64,000 bases of DNA, taken from contig NC_080559.1 of assembly GCF_030253575.1 (NCBI RefSeq), positions 33,165,501 through 33,229,500 of the forward strand. The letters run 5' to 3'. Positions 1,838 to 63,408 of this stretch are shown here, piece by piece. Every line of letters begins with the position of its first letter. Positions within the stretch are counted from its first letter, which is position 1. The notes below the pieces were generated by a model. It saw only the letters and a list, made by a program, of their open reading frames with translations. It was not told the DNA's origin and did not search any database. Origin of the DNA: Rhododendron vialii. Its lineage: Eukaryota; Streptophyta; Magnoliopsida; Ericales; Ericaceae. Made by a program: the position numbers and the translations under genes.

Positions 1838-2032
1838 GTTGGGGTGCGCCAAGCCAAGGCAATAGTGCCATACCAAGGCAAAGCATTATAGGCTCCTGCA
1901 ACTACTGTAGTGGGCCCTCCCCTCAAAAAATTATTAACTTAATAAAAGTAAACCGATGGCCCACATATCAAATATTAAACTAATAAGAACAAATACTACA
2001 CTTGATCTTTGCCAGAAGGCCGAGAGAATTAT
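1838..2032 (-). ncRNA. U2 snRNA-like gene copy 1 (probable pseudogene)
   Basis: On the minus strand this reads as spliceosomal U2 snRNA. It has CTCGGCCTTCTGGC, then AAGATCAAGTGTAGTAT with the GTAGTA branch-site-recognition sequence, the TTTAATATTTGATATGTGGGC stem-loop II region, an Sm-like AATTTTTTGA, and the 3' end GGCGCACCCCAACCAAAC. A 3' box fits just beyond (CA-N5-AGTTGAA). Departures from the usual U2 include ATAATTCTC at the 5' end, GGCAAAGATC instead of GGCTAAGATC, and changes in the 3' half. The TATA (2055-2065, reads CTATAACATAG) and the USE (2096-2109, one base short) are also weakened, so a working gene is unlikely. Confidence 0.85.
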
Positions 2033-2465
2033 GTCCTTTCTTCTCTTGGATTGCCTATGTTATAGTCAAGTTTTTTCTCCTCATTTTTTTGCGTAGTTGA
2101 TGTGGAAACAAACCCCAAAGTAACAATCTGGGTTTTGCTGCTTTTGCACATATTCTGCTTGGTTTGTGCCGTCAAGTCGACTCGGTTGTTTGAAGCCTCT
2201 GAGCACCTAGTGAGTCCTTGTGTCCACCAATTACAATATAACTGCTGAATCTATTGAGTATCAGATTGCTTGGGATAAACACCCCCCCTAAATTAGCCCT
2301 CTAAATTTCCCAGTAATGAGTTCAATACATAGCTCTATATAGCTTAGAATGTGATTGACTTGGTTCTAGCTTCAGGAAGTCTTTGCTACCCCTCAAGTTC
2401 CCTTTGTTTTACTTTTTAGCCCTGTAATTCCTCTCTTCTTTCTATTTTGGTTTGGACCTTGTCTA
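2033..2465 (-). repeat. U2 5' flank module
   Basis: This conserved stretch accompanies every U2-like copy. It holds the decayed TATA and USE, then GGGTTTTGCTGCTTTTGCACAT and the run through GTGTCCACCAATTACA. It ends near TCTAGTACATGG, where the DNA switches to the SINE-bearing segment instead of the usual L module. Confidence 0.7.
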
Positions 2466-2755
2466 GTACATGGGACATCCGATTTTTAAGAAAATGATAA
2501 ATCTCTACAATAGAAGGAATATGTGGTCTTGATAGGAATTAACGTAGACGTTTCCAAATATATTGGGTTTCCTGTGTTCCAGAGTCTTCGACAATCATAT
2601 AGTACCATTCATTTTTATCTTTGGAAACTCGTATACACTAGATACCACATGCATCACAAAAGATGGAATTTTCAAACTTATGTTTGGACCTTTGAACTTG
2701 TGGGGGAGACTGAAAAGTGGAGGAAAATGTTATAGGAAAAAAGGGTAAACGTGAA
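2466..2755. other. Unassigned segment before the SINE
   Basis: This segment is shared with 39665-39944 and 43824-44114. Open frames of 60-100 codons exist on both strands, but I recognise no family and see no start or splice context that favours any of them. Confidence 0.5.
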
Positions 2756-2829
2756 GTTGCCTCCCATCTCAGTTGGTAGAGCAGGTAATGGACACTTAAT
2801 TTGGTGAGAGTTCAAACCCCACTCCCACA
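2756..2829 (+). repeat. tRNA-like SINE head
   Basis: The sequence is 74 nt with a box A-like CTCAGTTGGTAGAGC and a box B-like GAGTTCAAACCCC at tRNA spacing. CACTTAA around the anticodon position suggests a tRNA-Lys ancestor. The acceptor ends do not pair, so this is a tRNA-derived SINE head and not a tRNA gene. The body extends into AT-rich DNA and its end is unclear. Confidence 0.65.
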
Positions 2830-3146
2830 TTCCTTTCTCCTAGTAGAATTTTCTTAAATTGAAAATAGATGTATTCGCTTCGAACAAAGAAGGTTTGTTT
2901 TTTTTCTATAATAAATACATGTGCATGAAGTTTACTGCTTGGAATTTTTTGCTCAATACTTGAGTTTCAAGTCTCCATAGTCTGTTGGAGAGAGTTAAAC
3001 ATCTGCTTTAACGCTCATATCACATGGTAGTATCTTAGCTTCGGACTTGAAATAGATGCGCTGAAATTTCCTACAAATAGCTATGCAATGTTGTGACGTC
3101 TGGAAATTTAGTTTATGAAGAAAACTACTTGTGACGTAATATGGTG
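2830..3146. other. AT-rich spacer, nothing recognised
   Basis: No coding or RNA signal is visible. The stretch is shared with the two other SINE segments, near 40.0-40.3 kb and 44.2-44.5 kb. Confidence 0.5.
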
Positions 3147-3316
3147 TTTTTTTTTTTTTTTGTCATTCGTTTATTCCTAATCTACTATATTCTAGGGGGC
3201 TTGAGGAGAGGGATGGGTGCTCACCGCAAGAACCTCAGGAATTGAACCCTGCCCATGTGCGTCGGAGTATAAGGGAGACACCAACTGCACTCCACTCCAC
3301 TTGCAATGGGTGTCAT
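3147..3316 (-). repeat. tRNA-derived SINE with poly(A) tail
   Basis: On the minus strand the element starts near CACCCATTGCAAG, has GCAGTTGGTGTC as a box A-like site and a perfect box B (GGTTCAATTCC), and ends in a run of about 15 A (T on the plus strand at 3147-3161). This is the structure of a tRNA-derived SINE. A target-site duplication was not clear. Confidence 0.65.
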
Positions 3317-3654
3317 GTTCTTTTTCTTCTCCTTAATTAAAAACCAGTATTTTAACATACAAACAAGCCAAGGTTTGAACATGTTTTGAAACTCATTCGA
3401 GTCATGTTTGAGTTAATTAAATTCGACTTTCATTCAATTCAATTGTAAGTACCTTAAGACCAGCCCAGTTCTGCTAAGTTTTCTTTAAAAATAAGTAATT
3501 ATTTGTAATTTCTAAACTTAAAAATAATGTATTTGCTGAAACAATTTGTCAAAAAAAAAAAGAAAAAAGAAAAGGAGCAGTGTACCAGGGATGGAATTAA
3601 TTATGCATTATTAACAAACAAAAGTATTCGGTTATTCAAAAAAATCAATCCACT
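3317..3654. other. AT-rich spacer, nothing recognised
   Basis: AT-rich with short A runs around 3550. No gene or RNA signal is seen. Confidence 0.5.
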
Positions 3655-4022
3655 CTTGGCCGCATCGATTTTTGCTTGACCACTATGAATTACTCTTGGA
3701 CGCGTTTAGTTGCACTTGGCAGCATTGAATTGCTCTTGGCTGAATCGAATTGCACTTGGCTACTGTGAATTACTCATGTCTGCCTCGAATTGCACTTGGC
3801 CGCGTTTAAGTGCACTTGGCCGCATTGAATTGCACTAGGCCGCTTCGAATTGCATTTGGCCACATGGAATTGCACTTGGCCGCGTCGAATTGCACTTGGC
3901 CAAGTGCAATTCGACGCGGCCAAGTACAATTCCATGCGGCCAAGTGCAATTCAATATGGCCAAGTGCAATTCAATGCGACCAAGAGTAATTCGTAGCGGC
4001 CAAGTGTAATTCGATGCGGCCA
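3655..4022. repeat. ~20-bp minisatellite arranged as an inverted pair
   Basis: Degenerate units of about 20 bp (consensus near GAATTGCACTTGGCCGCGTC) run in one direction up to about 3900. They then run as the reverse complement (CGGCCAAGTGCAATTCGACG) to about 4022. The centre, GCACTTGGCCAAGTGC, is a perfect palindrome. The array could form a long hairpin or cruciform. Confidence 0.85.
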
Positions 4023-4424
4023 AAACTAATTTATCTATAGCTTATCTCACTTGTTGCGAATAGCCGCTCCCAAGAGAAGCCCTGAAGCCGGACCTGGTGT
4101 TCTTCTCCATGAATTTCTCAATTATCAGAGCAAAAACAAACATACAATTGCTTTCACAGATATTTATGCTGAATAAAAGGCTCATATTCATACACATTGA
4201 TCCAACTTATTGTACTCTTCCTTCCTTTTCTTTCAATCAAGACATTTGTTGTATCCTCTCATCTATTTGCCCTTAAAATATGTTAGTATACAATACGCAA
4301 TTCTAGCAAAATACATCTCATCCAGTGCTATGTAATTTGAGAGTTAACAAGTTCCACAGGACCACTGCAGAAGACCAAAATGGGCCTTTAAACATTGATA
4401 AAAGTTGCACCTTCCATCACAGTT
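4023..4424 (-). other. 3' flank of the CHX pseudogene
   Basis: This lies downstream of the CHX stop codon on the minus strand. From about 4166 it repeats positions 1-258, so a CHX 3' flank occurs twice within 4.2 kb. No further gene is seen. Confidence 0.6.
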
Positions 4425-7082
4425 TTAGGCAGTGGTTTTCTGTTGCTGCACCACCAGCACAGATGCTCTACCCTTGAGATCCGACGACGAAAGAATGTCT
4501 CCGATCACTCCCATCTCCGGCAACTCACTCCACCCTTTCAACCCCAACGTCTGTGGAAACTCCACACCCCAATGTCTCCCCACGATTATGAGGTCGAATT
4601 CGCCCACCATTTCCCCTACTATCAACTCAGTTTCCGCCCCATCTTTCACTACCTCCTCCACGTAGACCATTTCCCCCCCACCAACGTTCGTAAACTCGTT
4701 CAACACCTCAGAGTCTCGCTTTTTCCCTTCATCAGAAGCTTCACATACCATGGGTTTGAAATTAACCATGGATAGTCCGATGCCCGAGGTCCTACTCTTT
4801 GCCATCCGTTTGGCGTAAAACAAAGCCTCACGGTCATCGCTCCCCCTGAAAAAGATCACAGCCACACGTTGCTACCGCTGCTACGAGAGGCCCCCCTGAT
4901 GGCGACCACGATCAACTAGGATCCCAACAGAACAAGGAGTCATGTCAAGGATTTTACAATTAACTGACCTCAGCTCAAAATCTTCCGACTCAACCGTCCC
5001 ATCAACCGCCCATTTTCGGTGAAATGGGATTACTGTTAGGGAAGCAGTTTTGTTCAGAGCAAGAGTACATATATCTTCATGCATTAGTTTTCGCGGAGAA
5101 ATCGCCGTGAAGGCCAGTGCGCAAATGCTCCCTTTGTGCCTTCTCTCATGGTGACCGAAAGCGTAGACCACATCGCCGCAGTAGGGGCTTTCTTCGGGAT
5201 TTTGATGATTTTCGTGAGAGATGAAGAGGGGAAGAGCTCGACTGTGGAGCTCGATTAGGTGAAGGGCATAAACCATCATAGGGCTTTCTCTGGTCGGACA
5301 GGAGATGTCGATGAGGTTGAGGAATGCCAAGATGTTGTCTGGCCTGTGGATACACATGACTATACGTATCTCACCACCTTGTTTGGAATGCATGATGCTT
5401 CTTTTTTGGTAGCCTGCATATTTCTGTGATGGATCGTAGAGTTGTTTTACCAAGAGTGGAAGGACCACTGATGCCACTGCTGTGCTAGTCACAAGCAATG
5501 CAAATGTCTCCTCATTGAATGCCTGCAGTAGTACATATAAAAGGGAAACTTTGTTTAGAAGGCATCTTGCCATGGTTTTGAAGTATTTTGTGTCGTTGAG
5601 TTTCAACATTTGGGAAGCAATAACATCATGTTGCATCCACTATGGTTGCAACATGGAAAAATGTGCTGTGTTCACCCATGAAAAATATCACAAAAAAAAA
5701 ATCAAAACTTGCAGAATTGGGACACTTAAAACTGCCAGAAAATGCAGTTTGCGAGAGATTCATCAAGTTAGGGATGGATTCGGGATTCCGACCTAGGGGA
5801 GGCAAGCTCCTGTAATATTCCGACCTAGTGGGTGCGAGCTCCTGATTTTGTGGTTATTGGCGGTGGATCTATGGGGGGAGGGTCTCCCCCCAGATCCACC
5901 CCTGCAACCAATGTGAAAGTGCGGGCAACAATTCTGGACCATAGAGGTGCTATGTGCACTTATCTACATCTCTCCAATCCTGTATATCTAGAATTTATGA
6001 AAATAACAGCGTATGTAAGTAGGGTAACACAGTACATACAAACAGACTTTACTTACAGAAACTTCATACAGAATGATATGGCTCATTTACATGTACCTAT
6101 TGGACATGGAAAAAAGTCCCCATCTTAGTTTGCAAACATGCCAAATATACATCAAATAGTTTTTCTGGATACATAAATCTCTTGTCAGAAAAGGACTTTT
6201 TCATTTAAACAAACAACTAAAATGATGGGAGCATGTAAGTGGCCAATTCCTACAAATCAGTGAGATCTCGAACAAAGGGGAAATTCAATAACGGCGAGTT
6301 TAGTTACCTGATCATCTCTGAAGAAGCTGTAGAAGGACATTTGAACGATGCCTTTAGAGCTCATGATGAGGCCCAAGGCTAGAGCATCCTTGAAGGGCAC
6401 TCGGCAAATACATGCAGGTATGATACACGCAACAACCTTCGCCAAGAAAACCACAATGATGAGGACGACAATAGAAATCGCATACGGGTTAGACAGATTT
6501 ATGGCTTGCAGATTCACCCTCAATGAGATCAAGGTCATGAAAAGTGGTATAAACAGACCGGAAACAAAGGAATCGAGCTTATCAGCCAATGCGGACCCCA
6601 GTGGCGGTCCATCTGGTACAGCAAATCCGAGGATAAAAGGACCCAATATAGGAAATTCTCCAATCCAGTGAGTAAATGCACCAGCGAGTAAAATAAGCAG
6701 AATGACAGAGCAAATGTATGAGTCCTTGACAGGCCTTCCTTCTGGTGTCTGTTTGACGATCCATAGCATTGCAGGCCGAATGATGATAATGACAACAAGA
6801 ATGAAACAAATAATCAATCCGATGAGCTGAAGTGTGCTTGATAACGAATGGTCTTCCATGAAAGACCTAAGCGTATTCATTATGAATGCGAGAGTTATGT
6901 CTAGTATTTCACTGGAGAGAGATGAAGCTAGTGCTAACCGACCGAGCTCTGAATTGAGGATTTTGAGCTCTTTGAGAAGCATAGCCACGACAACAAATAG
7001 GCTCACGGATTGTAAACTGGAATCAAATACCAGACTAGCTGTTGAACCATCGTCCTTGTCTCTTATGAATTCTTTTAGGAGC
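4425..7082 (-). pseudogene. CHX (CPA2) cation/H+ exchanger pseudogene, 5' truncated
   Basis: CHX proteins are plant monovalent cation/H+ antiporters of endomembranes and the plasma membrane. Exon 1 (6308-7082) keeps the middle and late membrane helices, including LNSELGRLALASS, EFPILGPFILGFAVPDGPPLGSAL and ALALGLIMSSKGIVQ. A clean donor (CAG|GTAACT) lies at 6308/6307 and an acceptor (TGCAG|GC) at 5523/5522. Exon 2 (4425-5522) gives the cytosolic C-terminal half, with LYDPSQKYAGYQKRSI, the CIHRPDN segment and DLIIVGRHWGVE near the end. The first ~150-180 residues are missing; at ~7083 the coding sequence runs into the L module. Two in-frame stops lie at 4883-4881 and 4874-4872. It should not make a transporter. 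The second copy at 45.8-48.4 kb has the same defects. Confidence 0.9.
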
Positions 7083-7611
7083 AGGTTTTTGTGTTGGACT
7101 CTCAAGGGTATCCAATATCCCCTTGGTCCATGTTTTTTAGGTTTTTTTTTTCTCAATGAAAAGCAACTTATCAAAACAAACTTGTACTAAAGCTCATTGA
7201 ATGGACTCGTGTAGCGCGTCGATGATCAAAATCAAACACTCACACACGAATTGAGAGAAAACTTAACTATTATTAGATCATACACAATACCATTACAAAA
7301 AAAAAAAAAAAAGACTCTCCAAAGGAGCACTCCTTTGAGCTTGACTCCGTCTGGTTATCTCTCACCCTCACCACAAATCTCGCCTTGGGTGAATACTAAT
7401 GATGAAATGATTTTTGATTATTTAATGAAGTGTGGAGAGCCCAATGAACGAGTACCAAAGAACTAGGGATGTGTGCATCAAATGAAACTTAGAATATGTA
7501 AATGGGCGTGAAAACAAACTTTAGACTTTGTCGTTCCAATGATCTTTGAATCGGTCTACCTTCGACCGACTTTTCATAAATAAACTTTCATTATTTTAAA
7601 TGGTCGTTTCC
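7083..7611. repeat. L module and left shoulder of the foldback
   Basis: Starts with GGTTTTTGTGTTGGACTCTC, passes a variable A run (7296-7311), and includes CCACAAATCTCGCCTTGGGTG. The same module follows most U2 flanks (e.g. 14475 and 18030) but here abuts the CHX remnant directly, so the CHX gene was cut by recombination with array DNA. No gene is seen. Confidence 0.7.
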
Positions 7612-8230
7612 AACACATTTAATAAAATTACAACCTCATTTATCATTATATAATTGATCTTAATCCGATTTAAAATAAAAATGATACGAGCGTTTTATTG
7701 AAAGAATTTGTTTTTCAACCCATTGAGGGTAAAAATGTCATGTCTTTGGATGTATATTTTTTTTTTCATTGGAACCAATTTGGTAGGTAATTACATTGGA
7801 CAAGCCTTCTAACGGTTCTATCCACGAGCAAATTGGAGTTCGGGAGTGTCTGGGGCAAGTCCGCAAAGTTGGACTTCTTTGCAATGTTCAGGATGCGCCC
7901 GGAGCGCATTGTAATGCGCCTGGGCGCAAAGGAGTGCGCCTGGGCGCATTGTAATGCTGCATAACATGTTAAACTTTGAGGACTTGCCCCGGACACTCCC
8001 TAACTCTAATTTTTGCGTGGTTTGAACCGTTAGAAAGCTTGTCCGATTTACTTTCCAGCCAAAGTAGTTTGGATAAAAAATCATTTGTATATCTAATGAA
8101 GCGACCATTTTACCCTCAATGGGTCAAATTATAATTCGTTCTGGCAAAACGCATGTATGTTTCTCATTTTAAATTGGATCAAGACCCATTATATATCAAT
8201 AAATAGTGTTTTTAAAGTACTAAAAGATGA
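7612..8230. repeat. Foldback 1 (long inverted repeat)
   Basis: The left arm (7612-7872) and right arm (7972-8230) are reverse complements around a ~100-bp GC-rich loop. The inner ~75 bp match best (left GGGGCAAGTCCGCAAAGTT against right AACTTTG-GGACTTGCCCC). The outer ~180 bp are looser but still collinear (e.g. CATTTATCATTATATAATTG against the complement of TATATATCAATAAATAGTG). The loop carries GCGCATTGTAATGCGCCTGGGCGCA-type repeats. It codes for nothing recognisable. A transcript would form a hairpin of over 200 bp. Confidence 0.85.
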
Positions 8231-9047
8231 AGGGATCCAACGATAAATGGGAGTTGAACATATAGTTTCTCTTTCCCCACATTGAAACAAGCGACATTCT
8301 TTGTTGCGATTGGTATTTTTTTTGGAAGCATCAATCTGAATGATACATTGTTTGGCAACATCTATAAATGTTTTTTGAATCAGAATGATGGATTTCTATT
8401 TGAAATGTTGGTGCATTGGTATTGGCTGTTTTATGAAAAATTGAATGTCAATTTCAGTAGTTCATTACATCAAAAAAGAAAAACGTACTGAATGCTCCTA
8501 AGGCGCAATTCATATGCGCCCGAGGCGCATTATAAAAAGGGAAAAAATAGGATGTGCCCAGGGAGCAATTCAAATGCGCCTGAGACACATTACAAAAAAG
8601 AAGAAATTCTGGTTGCGCCCAGCCGGAGGTGTGACTTAAATGTGCCTTACGAAAAGAGTTCAAATTAATCAGGATGCATGCCCTTGGCGCCATTCAAATA
8701 CGCTCGAGGCGCATGTGATGCAATTTTTTTTGGACTAGTTCGTTTTACTCCCGGTTGGATGGAGACTATAAAAGGCCAGCCTTTAAACATTAATTATTGT
8801 AAGGATTTTTAAAGCAAAAGAGACGCCCAAGAAGCCAGTGCGATGGGTTTCCAAGAGTTCCATCTCTGAAGATTTCATTGAACAACTTAAATCGATCTCC
8901 AATCATATCACTTCACTGAGAATTTCATATGCAATATAAAATTACTCATCATCAAATTATTTCTCATCAATGTCGGCATTCTTTGTTGGTTATGCTTTCG
9001 TCACAAGAAAATCCGTTAACTAGCTAAAAGTCCTATTCAATTAAAAT
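8231..9047 (+). repeat. G1 block 1: spacer, GC-rich repeats, TATA and leader
   Basis: A 250-bp spacer is followed by about four ~61-bp repeats on GCAATTCAxATGCGCCTGAGGCGCATTACA (8500-8720). CTATAAAAGG follows at 8766-8775, then a conserved leader (CAAGAGTTCCATC...). This looks like an upstream repeat array with a TATA box pointing at the PPR fragment. The promoter role is inference. A 60-70-codon open frame in the spacer recurs in all copies but begins without ATG. Confidence 0.65.
8766..8775 (+). promoter_or_regulatory. TATA-box-like site of the G1 block
   Basis: CTATAAAAGG sits just after the GC-rich repeats. Equivalent sites lie at 24273, 27777, 37138, 50131, 57517 and 62058. Altered forms are CTATAAATAAAGG at 11679 and 53038, and CTATGAAAGG at 16158. 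The position is conserved; activity is not shown. Confidence 0.5.
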
Positions 9048-9646
9048 GCAAGTTGACAACAATATCTTAATTTCTTGGTACATTTCAAGACAGGATATTG
9101 TTGCAGTTGACTGCAAAGTTTGGGGACATGGAGAACAGCATGACATGGAGTGCTATTATATCAGAGAGCCAATATAATATGACCATGTGCTAGGTTTTGA
9201 AGCCTTGCAATTTTGTCCAAACGGCAGAAGAAGGAATGGAGCCGAATAGTATGACTTTCTTAAGCTTATTATTTGCTTGTAGCCACTTTGAAGGTTGTAG
9301 AGTTGTTTTTGTGATGAAATGGCCATCTGTAGAGTCGTTTATGCCATCAAATAGAGATTCGGAATGGGAAGCTGAACGAGGATTTGTTGGGCCGGTCATG
9401 GAATGGGCATTTGGTATGATTATGAAATTAGTGACTTTTACATATGGTAGGATTTTGGGAGTGCTATCGGCAGCCTGTTGAGTTCATGGGAACCAAAAAA
9501 TGAGGGGAATATGTAGCAAAATGGCTCTTATATTTGGAACCTAAAAATGGTGGCCAGCTATTACACTAAGTAAAGTTCAAGCTGTTGTTGAGAGGTGGGA
9601 TAGAGTTGAAGAAGTACGGAGAGTAGCCGAAGTGGAGCTACGTTGA
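9048..9646 (+). pseudogene. PPR-E gene fragment (copy 2), internally deleted
   Basis: Same fragment family as copy 1, with SRQDIV at the 5' part and EEGMEPNSMTFLSLLFACSH and the E-motif start GVLSAAC visible. Compared with its duplicate at 50411-51179 it lacks about 168 bp near 9112, which removes the segment encoding the KMSDFAI and SVFQTSLLDFYAKF part. An extra stretch after FEGCRVVF repeats nearby sequence. Several frame changes and stops. Confidence 0.75.
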
Positions 9647-10090
9647 AGCCTAATGATCAATCCATGGGTTTGATTCTAGAAATCAATCACACCTTCAAAT
9701 TCTTAAAATCTATGAGCCACTGGATGTTATATGTAGGAATGAAATTACATCAACAGAAAAAAACTGAATGCTCCCAACGTGCTGTTGAAATTCGCTTGCG
9801 AAGCCCTACAAAATGAGAGAAAATAGAATGCACCCGGGGCATGATTCAATTGCGCTTGAGGCACATTAAAAAAGGATAGAAAATGTGAATGCGCCCGGGC
9901 GCAAAGTAAATGCGTTTGAGGCACATGCGATGCAGCAAATATTTTTAATTTGTTTTTTTAACTGAGTTTTTCTAGTCCGAATTGGAGCGAGACTAAAAGA
10001 TGGCAATCCTTCAAACATTATAACGATTTTTAAATCATAAGAGAGGCACAAGAAGCCCATACGAAGTGACTCCAAGGGTTGTTCGAGCAT
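9647..10090 (+). repeat. G2 block 2, joined directly to an L module
   Basis: Three GC-rich ~61-bp repeats (9770-9925) and the TATA-less AT-rich part. It is cut at about 10090 after GTTGTTCGAGCATAAGAGTG, where an L module begins. No U2 copy is present in this unit. Confidence 0.65.
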
Positions 10091-10511
10091 AAGAGTGCTC
10101 ATTGAGTGGACTCGTGTAGCGTGCTGAGCATCAAAATCAAACACTCACACACGAATTGGGAGAAAACTTAACTATTATTGGATCATACATAATAACATTA
10201 CAAAAAAAAAAAAGACTCTCCAAAGGAGCACTCCTTTGAGCTCGACTCCGTCTGGTTATCTCTCACCCTCACCACAAATCTCGCCTAGGGTGAATCCTGA
10301 TGATGAAACGGTTTTTGATTATTTAATGAAGTGTGAAGAGCCCAATGAACAATTACCACAGAACTAGGGATATGTGCGTCAAATGGAACTTTGAATATGT
10401 AAATGGGCATGAAAACGAATTTTGGCCTTTGTTTCTCCAATGATCTTTGAATCGGTCTCCGTTCGACTGACTTTTCATAAATAAAATTTCATTATGTTAA
10501 TTGGTCATTTC
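10091..10511. repeat. L module (5' trimmed)
   Basis: Begins at CTCATTGAGTGGACTCGTG, so it lacks the first ~110 bp of the module, then runs to the foldback shoulder. No gene is seen. Confidence 0.65.
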
Positions 10512-11133
10512 TATTATTTTTTAATACTGTTACGACCTTATTTATCATTATATAATTGGTCTTAATCCAATATAAAATAAAAACAATACGAGCGTTCTAT
10601 TGAAAGATTTTTTTTCCGACCAATTGAGGGTAAAAATGTCATGTATTTTGATGTCAATTTTTTTTTTCATTAGAACCAATTTGGTAGGTAATTAGACTGG
10701 ACAAGCCTTCTAACGGTTCAATCCACGAGCAAATTGAAGTTCGGGAGTGTCTGGGGCAAGTCCGCAAAGTTGGACTTGTTTGCAACGTTCATGATGCGCC
10801 CGGGGCGCATTGTAATGCGCCTGGGCGCAAAGGAGTGCGCCTGAGGCGCATTGTAATGCTGCATAACATGTTAAACTTTGAGGACTTGCCCCGGACACTC
10901 CCTAACTCTAATTTTCGCGTGGTTCGAACCGTTAGAAAGCTTGTCCGATTTACTTTCCAGCCAAAGTAGTTTGGATAAAAAAAATCATTTGTATATCTAA
11001 TGAAGCGACCATTTTACCCTCGATGGGTCAAAATATAATTCGTTCTGGCAAAACGCATGTATGTTTCTCATTTGAAATTGGATCAAGACCCATTATATAT
11101 CAATAAATAGTGTTTTTAAAGTACTAAATGATG
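10512..11133. repeat. Foldback 2
   Basis: Left arm 10512-10771, right arm 10873-11133, with a GC-rich loop carrying CGCCCGGGGCGCATT and CGCCTGAGGCGCATT. The duplicate at 52047-52494 has lost the loop and the inner right arm. Confidence 0.85.
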
Positions 11134-11956
11134 GCGGGATCCAACGATAAATGGTAGTTGAACATATAGTTTCTCTTTCCCTGCATTGAAACAAGCGATA
11201 TTCTTGCTTGCGATTGGTATTTTTTTTTGGAAGCGTCAATCTGAATGATACATTGTTTGGCAACAACTATAAATGTGTTTTGAATCAGAATGATGGATTT
11301 CTATGTGAAATGTTGGTGCATTGGTATGCCTCTTGGCTGTTTTATGAAAAACTGAATGTCTATTTCAGTAGTTCATTACATCAAAAAAGAAAAACGCACT
11401 GAATGCTCCCATGGCGCAATTCATATGCACCTGAGGCGCATTATAGAAAGGGAAATTATAGGATGTGCCCAGGGAACAACTCAAATGCGCCTGAGACACA
11501 TTACAAAAAAGAAGAAATTTTGGTTGCGCCCAGCCAGAGGCCCGACTAAAATGTGCCTTACGAAAATTGTGCAAATTAATCAGGATGCACACTCCCTTGG
11601 CAATATTCATATGCCCCTGAGGCGCATGTGACGCAAATTATTTTTTACTGGTTCGTTTTAGTCCTGGTTGGCTAGAGACTATAAATAAAGGGCCAGCCTT
11701 TCAACGTTAATTAGTGTAAGGATTTTTCAAGCAAAAGAGATGCAGAAGAAGCTAGTGCAAAGGGTTTCCAAGAGTTCCATCCTTGAACATTTCATTGAAC
11801 AACTTAAATTGATCTCCAATCAAATCACTTCACTGAGAATTTCATATGGAATTTAAAATTACTCATCATCAAGTTATTTCTCTTCAATGGCGTCATTCTT
11901 TGTTGGTTATTCTTAGAAAATCAGTTAACTAGCTAAAAGGCCTATTCCATTAAAAT
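11134..11956 (+). repeat. G1 block 2
   Basis: Spacer, four ~61-bp GC-rich repeats (11410-11635), an extended TATA form CTATAAATAAAGG at 11679-11691, and the leader. No coding signal. Confidence 0.65.
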
Positions 11957-12772
11957 GCAAGTTGACAATACCTTGATTTCTTGGTACATTTCAAGACAGG
12001 ATATTGTGGAAGTTTACAATTGTTTTAACAAACTGCAAGGTGAAGTAAGGCCTAGCAGTGGGACATTGACCTTGACAATTGTTTTAACAAACTGCAAGGT
12101 GAAGTAAGGCCTAGCAGTGGGACATTGACCTTGGGTATCTCACCTTTTGGGAAGAATGTTAATCTTTTCCAAGGAAAAATGTCTGATTTTGCTATTGAAA
12201 ATGGGACTTCATCGCAGTGTTGTCCAAACTTCATTGTTGGATTTTTTTGCAAATTAAAGTTTGGGGAGATGGAGAATAGCATTACTTGGAGTGCTATTAT
12301 ATCAGGTCTTATTGATGGAGAGCTGTTATTATACGACCATGCCCTAGGTTTTGAAGCCTGCAATTTTGTCGTTAAACGGCAGAAGAAGGAATGGAGCCGA
12401 ATAGTATGACCTTCTTGAGCTTATTATCTGCTTGTAGCCACACTGGCCATCTAGGTGAAGGCTGTAGAGTCGTTTATGCCATGAAATGGAGATTCGGAAT
12501 GGGAAGCTCAACGAGGATTTGTTGGGCAATGGGCATTTAGTAAGATTTTGAAACTAGTGACTTTTCCAAATGGTAGGATTTTGGGAGCGCTATTGGCTGA
12601 CTGTAGAGTTCATGGGAACCAAAAAATGAGGGGAATATGTAGCAAAATGGCTCTTATATTTGGAACGTAAAAATGGTGGCTAGCTATTACACTCAGTAAA
12701 GTTCAAGCTGTTGCTGAGAGGTGGGATAGAGTTGAAGAAGTACGGAGAGTAGCCAAAGTGGAGCTGCATTGA
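11957..12772 (+). pseudogene. PPR-E gene fragment (copy 3) with a 59-bp tandem duplication
   Basis: Contains [32 protein letters not shown], the EEGMEPNS-type motif in a shifted frame, and an E-motif remnant. A 59-bp segment (ACAATTGTTTTAACAAACTG...) occurs twice in tandem at 12016-12133; both genomic copies of the block have it, so it predates the large duplication. It is broken by frame changes. Confidence 0.78.
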
Positions 12773-13215
12773 AGCCTAATGATCAATCCATGGGTTTGTT
12801 TCTATAAATCAATTGCACCTTCAAATTCTTGAAAACTATGAGCCTATTATATATATGTAGGAATGAAATTACATCAAAGAAAAAAAATGAATGCTCCCAA
12901 CGTATAGTTGAAATTCACTTGTGGCGCCCAACAAAATGAGAGAAAATTGAATGCGCCCGGGGCATGATTTAATTGCGCCTGAGGCACATTAAAAAAGGAT
13001 AGAAAATGTGAATGCGCCCGAGCACAACTTAAATGCGTCTGAGGCACATGCGATGCAGCAAATATTTTAAATTTGTTTTTTTAACTGAGTTTTTCTAGTC
13101 TGAATTGGAGCGAGACTAAAAGAAGGCAATCCTTCAGACATTATAACGATTTTTAAACCATAAGAGAGGCACAAGAAGCCCATACAAAGTGACTCCAAGG
13201 GTTGTTCTAGCATAA
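12773..13215 (+). repeat. G2 block 3
   Basis: Three GC-rich repeats (12890-13050), then the AT-rich part with the TATA site lost. Joined at 13215 to a trimmed L module, as in block 2. Confidence 0.65.
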
Positions 13216-16908: not shown

Positions 16909-16916
16909 CCGCAAAT

Positions 16917-44505: not shown

Positions 44506-44680
44506 TTTTTTTTTTTTTTTTTTGTCATTCGTTTATTCCTAATCTACTATATTCTAGGGGGCTTGAGGAGAGGGATGGGTGCTCACCGCAAGAACCTCAG
44601 GAATTGAACCCTGCCCATGTGCGTCGGAGTATAAGGGAGACACCAACTGCACTCCACTCCACTTGCAATGGGTGTCATGT
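44506..44680 (-). repeat. tRNA-derived SINE with poly(A) tail (copy 3)
   Basis: As 3147-3316 but with an A run of about 18 instead of 15. Confidence 0.65.
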
Positions 44681-51630: not shown

Positions 51631-52046
51631 CTCATTGAGTGGACTCGTGTAGCGTGCTGAGCATCAAAATCAAACACTCACACACGAATTGGGAGAAAAC
51701 TTAACTATTATTGGATCATACATAATAACATTACAAAAAAAAAAAAAGACTCTCCAAAGGAGCACTCCTTTGAGCTCGACTCCGTCTGGTTATCTCTCAC
51801 CCTCACCACAAATCTCGCCTAGGGTGAATCCTGATGATGTAACGGTTTTTGATTATTTAATGAAGTGTGAAGAGCCCAATGAACAATTACCATAGAACTA
51901 GGGATATGTGCGTCAAACGGAACTTTGAATATGTAAATGGGCATGAAAACGAATTTTGGCCTTTGTTTCTCCAATGATCTTTGAATCGGTCTCCGTTCGA
52001 CTGACTTTTCATAAATAAAATTTCATTATGTTAATTGGTCGTTTCT
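51631..52046. repeat. L module (5' trimmed)
   Basis: Counterpart of 10091-10511. Confidence 0.6.
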
Positions 52047-52494
52047 ATTATTTTTTAATACTGTTACGACCTTATTTATCATTATATAATTGGTCTTAAT
52101 CCAATATAAAATAAAAACAATACGAGCGTTCTATTGAAAGATTTTTTTTCCGACCAATTGAGGGTAAAAATGTCATGTATTTTGATGTCAATTTTTTTTT
52201 TCATTGGAACCAATTTGGTAGGTAATTAGACTGGACAAGCCTTCTAACGGTTCAATCCACGAGCAAATTGAAGTTCGGGAGTGTCTGGGGCAAGTCCGCA
52301 AAGTTCCGATTTACTTTCCAGCCAAAGTAGTTTGGATAAAAAAAATCATTTGTATATCTAATGAAGCGACCATTTTACCCTCGATGGGTCAAAATATAAT
52401 TCGTTTTGGCAAAACGCATGTATGTTTCTCATTTTAAATTGGATCAAGACCCATTATATATCAATAAATAGTGTTTTTAAAGTACTAAATGATG
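52047..52494. repeat. Foldback 9, apex deleted
   Basis: The left arm (52047-52305) joins at GTCCGCAAAGTT directly to CCGATTTACTTTCC, the outer right arm (to 52494). The loop and inner right arm (172 bp, kept in foldback 2) are gone, so only the outer, weaker arms could pair, around an unpaired ~75-nt left inner arm. Confidence 0.8.
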
Positions 52495-53315
52495 GCGGGA
52501 TCCAACGATAAATGGTAGTTGAACATATAGTTTCTCTTTCCCCGCATTGAAACAAGCGATATTCTTGCTTGCGATTGGTATTTTTTTTTGGAAGCACCAA
52601 TCTGAATGATACATTGTTTGGCAACAACTATAAATGTGTTTTGAATCAGAATGATGGATTTCTATGTGAAATGTTGGTGCATTGGTATGCCTCTTGGCTG
52701 TTTTATGAAAAACTGAATGTCTATTTCAGTAGTTCATTATATCAAAAAAGAAAAACGCACTGAATGCTCCCATGGCGCAATTCATATGCGCCTGAGGCGC
52801 ATTACAGAAAGGGAAATTATAGGATGTGCCCAGGGAACAACTCAAATGCGCCTGAGACACATTACAAAAAAGAAGAAATTTTGGTTGCGCCCAGCCAGAG
52901 GCCTGACTAAAATGTGCCTTACGAAAATTGTGCAAATTAATCAGGATGCACTCCCTTGGCAATATTCATATGCCCCCGAGGCGCATGTGACGCAAATTAT
53001 TTTTTACTGGTTCGTTTTAGTCCTGGTTGGCTAGAGACTATAAATAAAGGGCCAGCCTTTCAACGTTAATTAGTGTAAGGATTTTTCAAGCAAAAGAGAT
53101 GCAGAAGAAGCTAGTGCAAAGGGTTTCCAAGAGTTCCATCCTTGAACATTTCATTGAACAACTTAAATTGATCTCCAATCAAATCACTTCACTGAGAATT
53201 TCATATGGAATTTAAAATTACTCATCATCAAGTTATTTCTCTTCAATGGCGTCATTCTTTGTTGGTTATGCTTAGAAAATCAGTTAACTAGCTAAAAGGC
53301 CTATTCCATTAAAAT
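52495..53315 (+). repeat. G1 block 8
   Basis: Counterpart of G1 block 2, with CTATAAATAAAGG at 53038-53050. Confidence 0.65.
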
Positions 53316-54131
53316 GCAAGTTGACAATACCTTGATTTCTTGGTACATTTCAAGACAGGATATTGTGGAAGTTTACAATTGTTTTAACAAACTGCAAGGT
53401 GAAGTAAGGCCTAGCAGTGGGACATTGACCTTGACAATTGTTTTAACAAACTGCAAGGTGAAGTAAGGCCTAGCAGTGGGACATTGACCTTGGGTATCTC
53501 ACCTTTTGGGAAGAATGTTAATCTTTTCCAAGGCAAAATGTCTGATTTTGCTATTGAAAATGGGACTTCATCGCAGTGTTGTCCAAACTTCATTGTTGGA
53601 TTTTTTTGCAAATTAAAGTTTGGGGAGATGGAGAATAGCATTACTTGGAGTGCTATTATATCAGGTCTTATTGATGGAGAGCTGTTATTATACGACCATG
53701 CCCTAGGTTTTGAAGCCTGCAATTTTGTCGTTAAACGGCAGAAGAAGGAATGGAGCCGAATAGTATGACCTTCTTGAGCTTATTATCTGCTTGTAGCCAC
53801 TCTGGCCATCTAGGTGAAGGCTGTAGAGTCGTTTATGCCATGAAATGGAGATTCGGAATGGGAAGCTCAACGAGGATTTGTTGGGCAATGGGCATTTAGT
53901 AAGATTCTGAAACTAGTGACTTTTCCAAATGGTAGGATTTTGGGAGCGCTATTGGCTGACTGTAGAGTTCATGGGAACCAAAAAATGAGGGGAATATGTA
54001 GCAAAATGGCTCTTATATTTGGAACGTAAAAATGGTGGCTAGCTATTACACTCAGTAAAGTTCAAGCTGTTGCTGAGAGGTGGGATAGAGTTGAAGAAGT
54101 ACGGAGAGTAGCCAAAGTGGAGCTGCATTGA
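53316..54131 (+). pseudogene. PPR-E gene fragment (copy 8)
   Basis: Counterpart of copy 3, including the 59-bp tandem duplication at 53375-53492. Confidence 0.78.
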
Positions 54132-54580
54132 AGCCTAATGATCAATCCATGGGTTTGTTTCTATAAATCAATTGCACCTTCAAATTCTTGAAAACTATGA
54201 GCCTATTATATATATGTAGGAATGAAATTACATCAAAGAAAAAAAATGAATGCTCCCAACGTATAGTTGAAATTCACTTGTGGCGCCCAACAAAATGAGA
54301 GAAAATTGAATGCGCCCGGGGCATGATTTAATTGCGCCTGAGGCACATTAAAAAAGGATAGAAAATGTGAATGCGCCCGAGCACAACTTAAATGCGTCTG
54401 AGGCACATGCGATGCAGCAAATATTTTAAATTTGTTTTTTTAACTGAGTTTTTCTAGTCTGAATTGGAGCGAGACTAAAAGAAGGCAATCCTTCAGACAT
54501 TATAACGATTTTTAAACCATAAGAGAGGCACAAGAAGCCCATACAAAGTGACTCCAAGGGTTGTTCTAGCATAAGAGTGC
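54132..54580 (+). repeat. G2 block 9
   Basis: Counterpart of 12773-13215. Confidence 0.6.
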
Positions 54581-55046
54581 TCATTGAGTGGACTCGTGTA
54601 GCGTGTCGAGGATCAAAATCAAACACTCGCACACGAATTGGGAGAAAACTTAACTATTATTGGATCATACGCAATAACATTACAAAAAAAAGACTCTCCA
54701 TAGAAGCACTCCTTTGAGCTCGACTCCGTCTGGTTATCTCCCTCCCTCACCACAAATCTCGCCTAGGGTGAATCCTGGTGATGAAACGGTTTTTGATTAT
54801 TTAATGAAGTGTGGAGAGCCCAATGAACGAGTACCGTAGAACTAGGGATATGTGCGTCAAACGGAACTTAGAATATGTAAATGGGTGTGAAAACGAAATT
54901 TAGCCTTTGTTGCTCCAATGGTCTTTGAATCGGTCTCCCTTCGAGAAAATACTAGTACTAGTACTTCTCAATTACACAGATCTGCATATGTCAAAGCCAA
55001 CTAATTTGGTTCTAGACCCGAAGGAGCAGAAACATTTGAACTTGGT
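54581..55046. repeat. L module fused to the U2 3' flank
   Basis: Counterpart of 13216-13687, with the same joint at TCTCCCTTCGAGAAAATAC near 54945. Confidence 0.62.
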
Positions 55047-55239
55047 TTGGTTGGGGTGCGCCAAGCCAAGGCAATAGTGCAACACCAAGCCAATGCATTA
55101 GAGGCCGCAGTAGCAAGCTACTGTAGTGGGCCCTCCCCTCAAAAAATTATGAATTTAATAAATAGTGAACCGATAGCCCACATATTAGATATTAAACTAC
55201 TAAGAACCGATACTACACTTGATCTTTGCCAGAAGGCTT
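55047..55239 (-). ncRNA. U2 snRNA-like gene copy 7 (5' end missing, pseudogene)
   Basis: Counterpart of copy 2: GTAGTA and the 3' end are kept, the first ~12 nt are missing. TATA at 55262-55272, degraded USE at 55303-55317. Confidence 0.85.
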
Positions 55240-56355
55240 GTCTTCTTTTCTCTTAGGCTGCCTATTTTATAGTCAAGTTTTCTGTCCTCGTTTTTCTGCT
55301 TAGTTGATATAGGAAACAAACCCCAAAGTAACAAACTGGGTTTTGCTGCTTTTGCACATATTTTGGTTGGTTTGTGCAGCCGGTTCGACTCAGTTGTTTG
55401 AAGCCTCTGAGCACCTGGTGAGTCCTTGTGTCCACCTCCATCATTGGCTAAACAATCATTTGGTTATCACATTTTGGGCTTTATTCTAACCAAAGCTATT
55501 GCATCGTTTGCCCAAATGATGTCCTCTCTGATCTCATCCGTATTCCGATCGAAGATGGAAGTTTCATTTACATTGTAACTGCTGAATCTATTGAGTTTGA
55601 GATTGCTTGGATTAAAAAAAAAACCCCTCTAAATTAGCCCGTCAGATATCTAAATTAGCCCTCTAAATTGCTCAATAATGAGTTCAATATGCAGCTCTGT
55701 ATTGCTTAGAATGTGATTGAGTTCGTTCTAGCTTCAGGAAGTCTTTGCTACCCCTTGAGATCCATTTGTTCTACTTTTTAGTCCTGTAATTCCTCTCTTC
55801 TTTCTGTTTGGTTTGGACCTTCTCTAGTACATGGTAGGTTTTTGTGTTGGACTCTCAAGGGTATCCAATATCCCCCTGGTCCATGTTTTTTAGTTTGTTT
55901 TTTCTCAATGAAAAGCAACTTACCAAAACAAACTTGTACTAAAGCTCATTGAGTGGACTCGTGTAGCGCGTCAAGGATCAAAGTCACACACGAATTGAGA
56001 GAAAACTTAACTATTATTGGATCATACGCAATAAAATTACAAAAAAAAAAAAGACGCTCCAGAGGATCACTACTTTGAGCTCAACTCCCTCTGGTTATGT
56101 CTCACCCTCACCACAAATCTCGTCTTGGGTGAATTCTGATGATGAAACGGTTTTTGATTATTTAATGAAGCGTGGAGAGCCCAATAAACAAGTACCATAG
56201 AACTAGGTATGTGTGCGTCAAACGTAACTTAGAATGTTTAAATGGGCGTGCAAACGGACATTAGCCTTTGTCTCTCCAATGATCTTTGAATCGGTCTCCC
56301 TTCGACCGACTTTTCATAAATAATAAAATTTCATTATTTTAATTGGTCATTTCCA
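55240..56355. repeat. U2 5' flank plus L module
   Basis: Counterpart of 13881-14996, including the ~135-bp extra segment near 55441-55570. Confidence 0.62.
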
Positions 56356-56974
56356 TCGTCTTTTCATACAGTTAAAACCTTATTTATCATTATATAATTT
56401 GTCTTAATCCGATTTAAAATAAAAACGATACGAGCGTTTTATTGAAAGAATTTGTTTTTCGACCAATTGAGGGAAAATGGTCATGTATTTTGATGTAAAA
56501 ATTATATTTCATTGGAACCAATTAGGTAGGAAATTAGATTGGACAAGCCTTCTAACGGTTCAATCCAAGACCAAATTGGAGTTCGGGAATGTCTGGGGCA
56601 AGTCCACAAAGTTAGAATTGTTTGCAAGGTTCAGGATGCGCCCGTGGCGCATTTTAATGTGCCTGGGCGCAAAGGAGTACGCCTGAGGCGCATTGTAATG
56701 CTGCATAACATGTTAAACTTTGCGGACTTGCCCCGGACGCTCTCAGACTCCAATTTTCGCGTGGTTTGAACCGTTAGAAAGCTTGTCCAATTTACTTTCT
56801 AGCCAAAGTAGTTTGGATAAAAAAACCATTTGTATATCTAATGAAGTGACCATTTTACCCTCGATGGGTTAAAATAGGATTCGTTCCGACAAAATGCGTG
56901 TATGTTTCTCATTTTAAATTGGATCAAGACCCATAATATATAAATAAATAATGTTTTTAAAGTACTAAAAGATG
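56356..56974. repeat. Foldback 10
   Basis: Counterpart of foldback 3: left arm 56356-56614, right arm 56715-56974. Confidence 0.85.
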
Positions 56975-57635
56975 GCGGGATCAAACTATAAATGGGAGTT
57001 GAGCATATAGTTTCACTTTCCCCACATTGAACCATGCGATATTCTTGGTTGCGATTGGTATTTTTTTTGGAAGCATCAATCTGAACGATACATTGTTTGG
57101 CAACAACTATAAATGTGTTTTGAATCAGAATGATGGATTTCTATGTGAAATGTTGGTGCATTGGTATGCCTCTTGGCTGTTTTATGAAAAACTGGATGTC
57201 TTTTTCAGTAGTTAATTACATCAAAAAAGAAAAACGTATTGAATGCTCCCAAGGCGCAATTCATATGCGCCTGAGGCGCATTACAGAAAGGGAAAAAATA
57301 GGATGTGCCCAGGGAGCAATTCAATTGCGCCCGAGACACATTACAAAAAAAAAGAAATTCTGGGTGCGCCCAACCGAGCCGCGACTTAAATGTGCCTTAC
57401 GAAAATAGTGCAAATTAATCAGGATGCACGCCTTTGGCTCAATTCAAATACGCCCGAGGCGCATGTGATACATTTTTTTTTTTCGACTGGTTCGTTTAGT
57501 TCTAGTTGGCTGTAGACTATAAAAGGCCTGCCTTTAAACATTAATTAGTGTAAGGATTTTTCAAATAAAGGTGACGCACGCACAAGAAGCCAGTGCGAAG
57601 GGTTTCCAAGAGTTCCATCGATGAAGATTTCATTG
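56975..57635 (+). repeat. G1 block 9, cut short by element X; crossover zone
   Basis: The first half follows G1 block 3. From about 57405 the sequence is no longer its close duplicate and resembles the G1 blocks near 24.2 and 27.7 kb (for example CTATAAAAGG-CCTGCC at 57517-57526, against the damaged CTATGAAAGG at 16158). The leader ends where element X starts. Confidence 0.65.
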
Positions 57636-57842
57636 AACATAGACTTATGGTGTTAGATATTTGCTCTCGAACTAGACGGTGGCATCTTTCTTGTTGTTCC
57701 TATTTCGGCTCCCGCATTACGAAATCTTGATTCTGTCCTTGCTAGTACCCGTATGCAAACAAAAAGATTCAAACTTGTCTTGTTTTCTTGATTTGTCCAA
57801 ATGAATTACAAACAAGGGAAGAAGAGAACTTTAATCGATGAG

Positions 57843-57887
<45 letters not shown>

Positions 57888-58334: not shown

Positions 58335-58645
58335 TATTGAAAGCGTGATTACTACGCACGATTCTATTGTGTTTTACATGCTTCTTGGCCGCTTTGAATT
58401 ACTCGTGGATGCGTCAAATTACACTTGACCGCGTCGAATTACATTCTCTTGTGTTTTACATGCTTTTTGGCCACGTTGAACTACACTTGGTAGATTCGAA
58501 TTACTTGAGGACGCGTCGAATTACACTTGGCCGCATCAAATTACATTCTCTTTTTTATACATGCTTCTTGGCCGCGTAGAAGTACACTTGGCCACGTTGA
58601 ATTAGACTTGGCCGCGTCGGATTACTCGTGGCCGCAAACATTTTT
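58335..58645. repeat. ~20-bp minisatellite
   Basis: Unit order follows 33546-33838. Confidence 0.8.
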
Positions 58646-59854: not shown

Positions 59855-60057
59855 TTTGGTTGGGGTGCGCCAAGCCAAGGCTATTTGCAACACCAAGGCA
59901 ACGCATTAGAGGCCGCAGTAGCAAGCTACTGTAGTGGGCTCTCCCCTCAAAAAATTATTAATTTAATAAAGAGTGAATCGATGACCCACATATCAGATAT
60001 TAAACTAATAAGAATAGACACTACACTTGATCTTTGCCAAAAGGCCGAGAAAGGAAT
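59855..60057 (-). ncRNA. U2 snRNA-like gene copy 8
   Basis: Counterpart of copy 4: ATTCCTTTCTCGGCCTTTTGG, CAAAGATCAAGTGTAGTGTC (one change in the branch-site region: GTAGTG), Sm-like AATTTTTTGAG, 3' box kept. TATA perfect (60080-60090). USE core has one change (TTCCTACATCA, about 60123-60133). Confidence 0.85.
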
Positions 60058-60942: not shown

Positions 60943-61515
60943 TCATCTTTTAATACAGTTAAAACCTTATTTATCATTATATAATTGGTCTTAATCCTAT
61001 TTAAAAAAAATTATACGAGCATTTTATTGAAAGAATTTATTTTTCTACCAATTGAGGGTAAAACGGTTATGTATTTAGATTGGACAAGACTCCTAACGGT
61101 TCAATCCACGACCAAATTGGAGTTCGGGAGTGTCTGGGGCAAGTCCGCAAAGTTGGACTAGTTTGCAATGTTCATGATGAGTCCGGAATGCATTGTAATG
61201 CGCCTGGGCGCAAAGGAGTGCACCTGAGGCTCATTGTAATGCTGAATAACATGTTAAACTTTTCGGACTTGGCCTGGACACTCCCGAACTCCAATTTTCA
61301 CATGGTTTAAACTGTTAGAAAGCTTGTCCAATTTACTTTCTAGCCCAAGTAGTTTGGATAAAAAATCATTTGTATATATAATAAAGTTACCATTATACCC
61401 TCGATGGGTCAAAATATGATTCGTTCTGGCAAAACGCGTTTTTTTTCTTCTTATTTTGAATTGGATCAAGACCCATTATATTTCAATAAATAGTGTTTTT
61501 AAAGTACTAAAATAT
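60943..61515. repeat. Foldback 11 (hybrid)
   Basis: The left arm (to ~61152) and inner right arm (from ~61257, CGGACTTGGCCTGGACACTC) follow foldback 7. The outer right arm (AAGTTACCATTATACCCTC...) follows foldback 6. From about 61.5 kb the flank follows 23.7 kb. A recombination joint lies inside the hairpin. Confidence 0.8.
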
Positions 61516-62333
61516 GGCGGGATCCAACCATAAATGGGAGTTGAACTTATAGTTTCACTTTCTCCACATTGAATCAAGCGATATTCTTGCTTGCGATTGG
61601 TATTTTTTTTGGAAGCATCAATCTGAATGATACATTGTTTGGCAACAACTATAAATGTGTTTTGAATCAGAATGATGGATTTCTATGTGAAATGTTGGTG
61701 TATTGGTATGCCTCTTGGTTGTTTTATGAAAAACTGAATGTCTATTTCATTAGTTCATTACATCAAAAAAGAAAAACGTACTGAAAGCTCCCAAGGCCCA
61801 ATTCATATGCGCCTGAGGCGCATTACAGAAAGGGACAAATTGGATGTGCCCAGGGAGCAATTCAATTGCGCCTGGGACACATTACAAAAAAGAAGAAATT
61901 CTGGGTGCGCCTAGTTGGGCCGTGACTTAAATGTGCCTTACGAAAAGAGTGCAAATTAATCAGTATGCACGCCCTTGGCGCAATTCAAATACGCCCGAGG
62001 CGCATGTGATGCAATTTTCTTTTTGATTGGTTCATTTTAGTCCTGGTTGGCTGGAGACTATAAAAGGCCTGCCTTTAAACATTAATTAGTGTAAGGATTT
62101 TTCAAGAAAAGGTGACGCACAAGAAGCCCGTGTGAAGGGTTTCCAAGAGTTCCATCCATGAAGTTTTCATTGAACAACTTAAATCGATCTCCAATCAAAT
62201 CACTTCACTGAGACATTCATACAGAATGTAAAATTACTCATCATCAAATTTCTCATCAATGGCGGCATTCTTTGTTGGTTATGCTTTCGTTACAAGAAAA
62301 TCAGTTAACTAGCTAAAGGCCTATTCAATTAAA
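61516..62333 (+). repeat. G1 block 10
   Basis: Counterpart of G1 block 4, with CTATAAAAGG at 62058-62067. Confidence 0.65.
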
Positions 62334-63094
62334 ATGCAAGTTGACAATATCTTGATTTCTTGGTACATTTCAAGACAGGATATTGGGGAAGTTGATAATT
62401 GTTTTAACAAACTGCAAGGTGAAGTAAGGCCTAGCAGTGGGACATTGACCTTGCGTATCTTAGCTTCTGGGAAGAATGTTAATCTTTTTCAAGGCAAAAT
62501 GTCTGATTTTGCTATTGGAAATGGACTTCATCACAGTGTTTTCCAAACTTCATTGTTGGATTTTTATGCAAAGTTTGGGGACATGGAGAACAGCATTACT
62601 TGGAGTGCTATTATATCAGGTCTTGTTGGTGGAGAGCTGATATAATATGACCATGGGCTAGGTTTTGAAGCCCTGCAATATTGTCGTCAAATGGCGGAAG
62701 AAGGAATGGAGCCGAATAGTATGACCTTTTTGAGTTTATTATTTGCTTGTAGCCACTCTTGCCATCTTGGTGAAGGCTGTAGAGTCATTTTTGCCATGAA
62801 ATAGAGATTCGGAATGGGAAGCTCAACGACGATTTGTTGGGCTGGTCATGGAATGGGCATTTGGTATGATTCTGAAACTAGTAACTTTTCCATGTGGTAG
62901 GATTTTAGGAGCGCTATTGGTAGCCTGTAGAGTTCATGGGAACCAAAAAATGAGGGGAATATGTAGCAAAATGACTCTTATATTTGGAACCTAAAAATGC
63001 TGGTGAGCTACTACACTTAGTAAAGTTCAAGCAATTGCTGAAAGGTGGGATAGAGTTGGAGAAGTACGGGGAGTAGCTGAGGTAGAGCTACGTT
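62334..63094 (+). pseudogene. PPR-E gene fragment (copy 9)
   Basis: Counterpart of copy 4 and equally readable: ISWYISRQDIGEVDNCFNKL to ITWSAIISGLVGGEL in one frame (62334-62645), then EEGMEPNSMTFLSLLFACSH, RNGKLNDDLLGWSWNGHLV and E-motif pieces in other frames. Confidence 0.8.
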
Positions 63095-63306
63095 GAAGCC
63101 TAATGATCAATCCATGGGTTTTTTTTTCTGGAAATCTCTCGCACCTTCAAATTCTTGAAATCTATGAGCCATGGGATGTTATATGTTGGAATGAAATTAC
63201 AACAGAAAAAAAATTGAATGCTCCCAACGTGCAGTTGAAATTCGCTAGAGGTGCCCTACAGAATGAGAGAAAATAGAATGCGACTGAGGCACATTACAAA
63301 AGGAAA
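63095..63306 (+). repeat. G2 block 11 (short)
   Basis: Counterpart of 25313-25522. Confidence 0.6.
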
Positions 63307-63408
63307 ATTAATTTAATAAGGAATGAGCTGATGGCTCACATAGCAGATATTAAACTATTAAGAACAAATACTACACTTGATCTTAGCCAAAAGGCCGAGA
63401 AAGTTTGT
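63307..63408 (-). pseudogene. U2 snRNA-like copy 9, 5' half only
   Basis: Counterpart of copy 3: CTTTCTCGGCCTTTTGGCTA, AGATCAAGTGTAGTATTTG, then stem-loop II and a break before the Sm site. TATA at 63429-63439; poor USE (63470-63484). Confidence 0.82.

Follow-up and report, generated by a model that had tools for sequence, protein, structure and literature searches.

A 64,000-nucleotide stretch of the Rhododendron vialii genome (C3:33165501-33229500; hereafter the window) carries nine U2 small nuclear RNA (snRNA) sequences in a tandem array. Are these sequences genes that supply the cell with U2 RNA, or copies that have been carried along as the array multiplied? The window was compared with the remainder of the genome, which comprises 532.6 Mb in 13 contigs. 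The reading that fits best is that the nine copies are U2 pseudogenes, duplicated rather than retroposed, in a multi-locus repeat family; sequence comparison lends this reading a probability of roughly 0.85.

U2 copies and the repeat unit

The window was searched with Rfam cmscan using the U2 family model (RF00004; cut-off 46 bits). Nine matches were obtained, all on the minus strand, with scores of 93.9-131.5 bits and E-values of 1.7e-26 to 1.7e-17. Each score exceeds the gathering cut-off, which identifies all nine copies as U2 by descent. The initial annotation of this DNA had described nine minus-strand U2-like copies and proposed a covariance-model search as the check; the search recovered all nine at the positions given, rather than no match or short fragments only. 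Both U2 ends are present in seven copies. The copies matched from 25464 and 63273 (E and L) are 5' halves without a complete 3' domain (stem-loops III and IV). E and L align to the other copies only over the first ~100 nt, and the remainder is other sequence across which the model is stretched. In copy E, a deletion took the 3' half and fused the copy to the preceding module (junction 25496/25525). The GTAGTA motif is kept in eight of the nine copies and reads GTAGTG in the copy at 59860, as first described.

Copy A: 1839-2032, minus strand; 104.5 bits, both ends present, U23A, stem-loop III damaged, TATAACA
Copy C: 13692-13880, minus strand; 104.2 bits, U23A, ~10 nt of stem I gone
Copy E: 25525-25624, minus strand; 5' part only, 99.0 bits over 25464-25624
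Copy F: 35016-35213, minus strand; 115.2 bits, both ends present, U23A
Copy G: 39003-39200, minus strand; 131.5 bits (top score in the window), U23A
Copy H: 43197-43390, minus strand; 103.5 bits, near-identical duplicate of A
Copy J: 55051-55239, minus strand; 104.2 bits, duplicate of C with 0 differences in the compared stretches
Copy K: 59860-60057, minus strand; 127.3 bits, both ends present, U23A and A39G (GTAGTG)
Copy L: 63307-63406, minus strand; 5' part only, 93.9 bits over 63273-63406, same deletion junction as E

Self-comparison of the window, combined with mapping of a 3995-bp reference unit (34381-38375) along it, revealed a head-to-tail array with a unit of ~4.0 kb, in which all unit matches kept lie on one strand. 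The window contains 12 unit copies (A-L, the last of which is cut by the window end) and the tail of an earlier unit at 415-1250. U2 is found in nine of the 12 unit copies (seven with both ends and two as 5' halves) and is thus a standing part of the repeat unit, as initially proposed. The foldbacks that had been assigned to the unit are likewise confirmed by reverse-strand matches of the foldback module at about 63-79% identity. The assignment of pentatricopeptide repeat (PPR) remnants is weak: of three candidate open reading frames (ORFs) scanned, two gave Pfam matches below the cut-off (best PPR match 18.8 bits, curated cut-off 25) and the third gave none.

Reference unit F: 34381-38375, plus strand; 3995 bp with spacer, U2 with promoter, foldback module and PPR-like module
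Foldback module of the unit: 36236-36848, plus strand; partly self-complementary
Unit B: 9851-10097, plus strand; U2 deleted, with a jump from reference position 244 to 1317
Unit D: 17602-17746, plus strand; U2 region reduced to the distal promoter flank (reference 875-1019)
Unit I: 51384-51630, plus strand; duplicate of B, U2 deleted with the identical 244-to-1317 jump

Plant snRNA promoters are recognized by an 11-base upstream sequence element (USE) and by the spacing rule of RNA polymerase II (Pol II). For the TATA and USE reported earlier in Pol II spacing, the spacing is 33 nt in all nine window copies, but TATAAAA occurs in seven and TATAACA in two, and the USE matches at only 6-9 of 11 positions. 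A 3' box fitting CA-N3-10-AGTNNAA is present in seven copies and not in the other two. For copy F, the copy chosen for this test, 23 of 5000 shuffles of the upstream sequence scored as well as its USE (9/11).

Promoter flank of copy F: 35214-35393, minus strand; 180 bp, USE 9/11 at -76, TATA at -32

Two sequences outside the window served as controls. An ordinary U2 gene on C12 has a USE of 10/11 at a spacing of 32 nt, and contig L001 has one of 9/11 at 22 nt. Within the stretch searched, the C12 gene showed no match to the strict 3' box pattern. The USE is given as RTCCACATCG in the sections of PMC545797 used here. The promoter and, in seven of the nine window copies, the 3' box travel with the U2 body; the window copies are therefore DNA-level duplicates, and an origin as retroposed U2 pseudogenes was rejected on the same grounds.

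Probable decay of the U2 body

The first 67 nt of the 5' domain were compared with the canonical sequence in L001. This contig, from a metagenome bin assigned to the cyanobacterium Trichormus, contains a plant-like U2 promoter and 5' domain at positions 1701-1838 and is probably a contaminant from the host plant of Trichormus. Every window copy carries 5-8 substitutions in the 67 nt, compared with one in the C12 gene, and none of the nine preserves the near-invariant 5' domain (stem I, U6 pairing and branch-site pairing) of a functional U2. U23A is found in seven copies, including C and J, in which ~10 nt of stem I are missing. By its position, U23A alters the U in the GCU of U2 that forms U2/U6 helix Ib with the U6 AGC triad; in this helix, U23 pairs with A59. 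C51U is present in all nine copies and converts a C-G pair of stem IIa to U-G. The numbering of U2 position 23 agrees with the yeast numbering in the part of PMC4081067 considered here.

Divergence of the body and its flanks was calculated for five independent lineages with both ends (10 pairs); E and L were left out as truncated copies, and H and J because they nearly duplicate A and C. The body diverges by 0.0998 (nt 1-109) and 0.0992 (3' domain), and the flanks diverge by 0.0941 (-180 to -1) and 0.0757 (3' flank). In the body, 39 of 182 columns vary, and in the 5' flank, 37 of 179 (Fisher p=0.90). Purifying selection on the body relative to the flank is not detected in the window. Plant U2 genes have a CAANTC element at -6 to -1 (PMC545797, in part), which is absent from all nine window copies; the C12 gene has CAATTC. 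With no detectable constraint on the body, 5-8 changes per 67 nt and no CAANTC, U2 genes, as the initial annotation termed the copies, is not the best reading of them.

Several observations weigh against loss of function. Among the five lineages, the flank from -230 to -1 diverges more (0.143) than the U2 body. The AAGATCAAGTGTAGT core is identical in all nine copies, yet the flank contains an identical run of 21, and a conserved run in the body was rejected as a sign of constraint in view of this longer flank run. The best window scores (131.5 and 127.3) overlap those of five U2 copies on C4, C8 and C13 that lie outside the repeat unit (123.4-129.4), so the score alone cannot mark the window copies as dead. 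CAANTC, as read from the upstream sequences, occurs in only three of six non-unit U2 copies and is missing in L001 too, so its absence from the window copies weighs little. In yeast, helix Ia changes are milder on the U2 side than on the U6 side, and the helix Ib changes C22A and C22G in U2 are viable unless joined with other mutations (PMC4081067, in the part considered). Given these mutant data, U23A alone need not be lethal.

The initial annotation had inferred that some copies may be transcribed. In a rival reading, copies F, G and K would be transcribed into variant U2 RNAs whose role is residual or altered. These three keep a USE of 8-9/11, TATAAAA, the 33-nt spacing and the 3' box, and in F the 3' domain also folds better than shuffled sequences (z=-2.13). 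However, the body shows no constraint, U23A is present and CAANTC is missing. Of the other 3' domains folded (five in all, each from a window copy), those of G (0.37), C (0.21) and A (0.56) are no better than shuffles, and that of K is only slightly better (-1.02). Transcribed variants with such a role are considered unlikely.

The unit family and its branches

The initial annotation did not foresee that the unit family extends over at least nine contigs. Flank comparison located related units on at least nine of the 13 contigs: C1, C3 (several sites), C5, C6 (two sites), C9, C10, C11, C12 (1.57 Mb) and C13 (7.8 Mb). In the cluster of the window, foldback-module matches run from 33148621 to 33290493 (~142 kb). 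The 180-bp promoter flank of copy F, used without U2 sequence as a genome probe, detected 19 copies in this cluster, of which nine lie inside the window.

The U2 model scored in at least 46 places in the genome. A 48-nt core allowed up to three mismatches was found at 47 places, none of them exact, and its reversed control at 0; the U2 core patterns gave 0 matches in the viral_contigs set. Position 51 is U at 38 of the 47 places. Two copies outside the unit, L013 on C8 and one in L019 on C13, also have U there, so position 51 alone does not mark the unit family. The non-unit U2 sequences on C4, C8 (two), C12 (3.58 Mb) and C13 (21.55 Mb) match only over 189-417 bp around U2. Among them, the ordinary C12 gene scores 166.7 bits and combines a near-canonical 5' domain (1 change per 67 nt) with a USE of 10/11, TATA and CAATTC. 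It adjoins a U1 gene (141.3 bits) ~1.3 kb apart (L018 3457-5156). On C13, two non-unit U2 copies, one of which has lost 10 nt, lie 2.4 kb apart (L019 2397-5208), and a snoR109 match is observed at 7435-7532 of L019.

A set of 33 unit-borne copies was derived from 42 listed U2 matches by leaving out nine: the truncated E and L, six copies outside the unit (C4, C8 twice, C12 and C13 twice) and one match with a run of N. In the tree of this set, the 15 copies with U23A form one clade, all falling to the same side of a split supported at 100/99. They consist of the seven window copies with U23A, four neighbours (L028 and L029), three of the four copies on C13 and one on C1. A second set was picked by promoter and comprises 40 copies scored of 92 candidates. 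U23A is carried by 24 of the 40, with a body/promoter divergence ratio of 1.42, truncated copies included, and the body of the U23A copies is more variable than the promoter (46 of 67 versus 89 of 180 variable columns, p=0.009). For the 12 promoter-picked copies without U23A outside the window cluster, the ratio is 0.69 (17 of 67 versus 61 of 177 variable columns, p=0.22).

Between non-window clusters of the 33-copy set, U2 nt 1-67 diverge by 0.082, compared with 0.185 for -100 to -1 and 0.228 for -180 to -100, in a set that was picked by U2 score and is biased toward well-kept U2. Selection on U2 in the other clusters was rejected as a firm claim because of this bias and the p value of 0.22 in the promoter-picked set. 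One unit-borne copy on C10 has U18C and C51U as its only 5'-domain changes, and its sequence makes working unit-borne U2 in other clusters possible. A tentative extension is that a variant U2 (U18C, C51U) spread in a low-copy repeat across many chromosomes and still serves as a working source in some clusters (such as C10 and C9), so that part of the splicing RNA would come from arrays, while other clusters, including that of the window, are dying and mostly marked by U23A.

History of the array and comparison with other U2 arrays

Two blocks of the window are copies of each other, and the relationships among units point to duplication of several units at a time.

Block A-C: 1-16497, plus strand; duplicated at 41359-57858
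Block H-J: 41359-57858, plus strand; other copy of A-C

Over three long pieces, offset by about 41.4 kb, the A/H, B/I and C/J pairs are 98.6-99.5% identical. Left of the window, the F-G block is repeated at a nearly equal offset of ~41.4 kb (L028 1969-10000 versus window 33349-41358; 98.8%). The F/K and E/L pairs are 95.7% and 95.3% identical, respectively, and most other unit pairs are about 81-92% identical. Multi-unit block duplication, as by unequal crossing-over, would be the simplest account of this history.

Alternatively, the unit could be a U2-carrying mobile element whose copies insert one at a time, as its foldback modules and its presence on at least nine of 13 contigs might suggest. 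However, the window cluster is head-to-tail, and the sole reverse transcriptase and integrase among nine window ORFs scanned belong to a copia insertion. The cluster at C12:1.57 Mb was the single locus compared in detail with the window. It contains unit copies in pieces 84-94% identical to the window and, adjoining them, the ~4 kb insert of unit D (window positions 18884-22953) in pieces 87-94% identical. At one edge of this cluster, a U2 copy is cut near its 5' end, and the upstream sequence is unrelated and AT-rich. Because unit copies and the neighbouring insert are shared with the window, block duplication is favoured over copy-by-copy transposition, which appears quite unlikely.

A further possibility is that the assembly itself created part of the array, with blocks A-C and H-J representing two haplotypes placed end to end. 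Their identity of 98.6-99.5% over 16.5 kb is within the range that heterozygosity could give, but units D to G separate the two blocks, and the neighbouring F-G block is also repeated, to the left of the window, at nearly the same spacing. Identity does not exceed 95.7% in the other long unit pairs listed (>=300 bp, long terminal repeats (LTRs) aside), so such an artefact could not explain most of the array; it too is judged quite improbable. A functional U2 macrosatellite of the human RNU2 kind, its units held similar by concerted evolution, would fit a tandem unit containing U2 and its promoter. This reading is very improbable, being already contradicted by the divergence of the units, which are not nearly identical, by lesions that differ among copies and by the loss of U2 from three of 12 units.

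In the pseudogene reading favoured here, a U2 gene, together with the Pol II promoter and 3' box belonging to it, would have become part of a ~4 kb block, which would have multiplied by duplication, in tandem and, as multi-unit pieces, to other chromosomes. U23A would have arisen in one ancestral copy of the branch leading to most window copies and would remove a U2/U6 helix Ib pair. This branch would have kept duplicating without selection on U2, with loss of 3' halves, of stem I or of the entire gene among its copies. U2 RNA would be supplied by ordinary U2 genes elsewhere and perhaps by better-kept unit-borne copies in other clusters.

As in human RNU2, U2 and its Pol II promoter share a tandem unit of several kb. 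The array differs in its decayed U2, its unit identities and its many loci, whereas RNU2 is described as repeating a 6.1 kb unit almost perfectly (PMC3795722, in part). Arabidopsis U2 genes share the USE, TATA, 3' box and U2 body with the window copies and include one tandem duplication; 17 of 18 U2 homologues are likely active, and active genes are >92% identical (PMC545797). The earlier remark that plant U2 genes are usually scattered agrees with this account, apart from the tandem duplication (U2-10) and one U2-U5 cluster. The parts of PMC545797 covered here describe no U2-bearing repeat unit, and none in plants was found among the matches listed in open-licence literature.

In oomycetes and wasps, U2 arrays are broken by Utopia retrotransposons, and there are genomes in which broken U2 genes outnumber intact ones; Phytophthora infestans, for example, has 41 broken and seven intact U2 genes (PMC4640811, in the sections considered). 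Utopia breaks U2 by insertion at one site, whereas the window copies are broken by substitution and deletion, and no insertions are seen in the alignment of the nine copies. A Utopia-type insertion was rejected for E and L, which are joined by a shared deletion to the neighbouring module of their own unit.

The family would show how, in a plant, the gene for a core spliceosomal RNA can be multiplied as the passenger of tandem blocks dispersed over the genome, its living-looking branches beside dead ones, and would offer a natural series for timing the loss of function in U2 copies. It also calls for caution with Rfam U2 gene counts in plant genomes, which can include many passenger copies, because window copies without detectable constraint score well above the cut-off and two score as high as some non-unit U2.

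Other elements occur within the array. An ARAGORN scan gave 0 matches. A copia LTR retrotransposon lies on the minus strand at 28375-33328, with RVT_2, rve and gag domains and ~300-bp LTRs that are 98.0% identical. A broken cation/H+ exchanger (CHX) gene is inserted on the minus strand in three reading-frame pieces (4425-7186 and 45789-48550). It was duplicated along with its block, and the first copy, the one scanned, has CHX domains above the Pfam cut-offs. Arrays of a 20-bp minisatellite of the CTTGGCCGCGTCGAATTACA type are found at 3655-4023, 16909-17453, 22394-22908, 33572-33829, 40832-41217, 45019-45387 and 58361-58636, some of them partly inverted.

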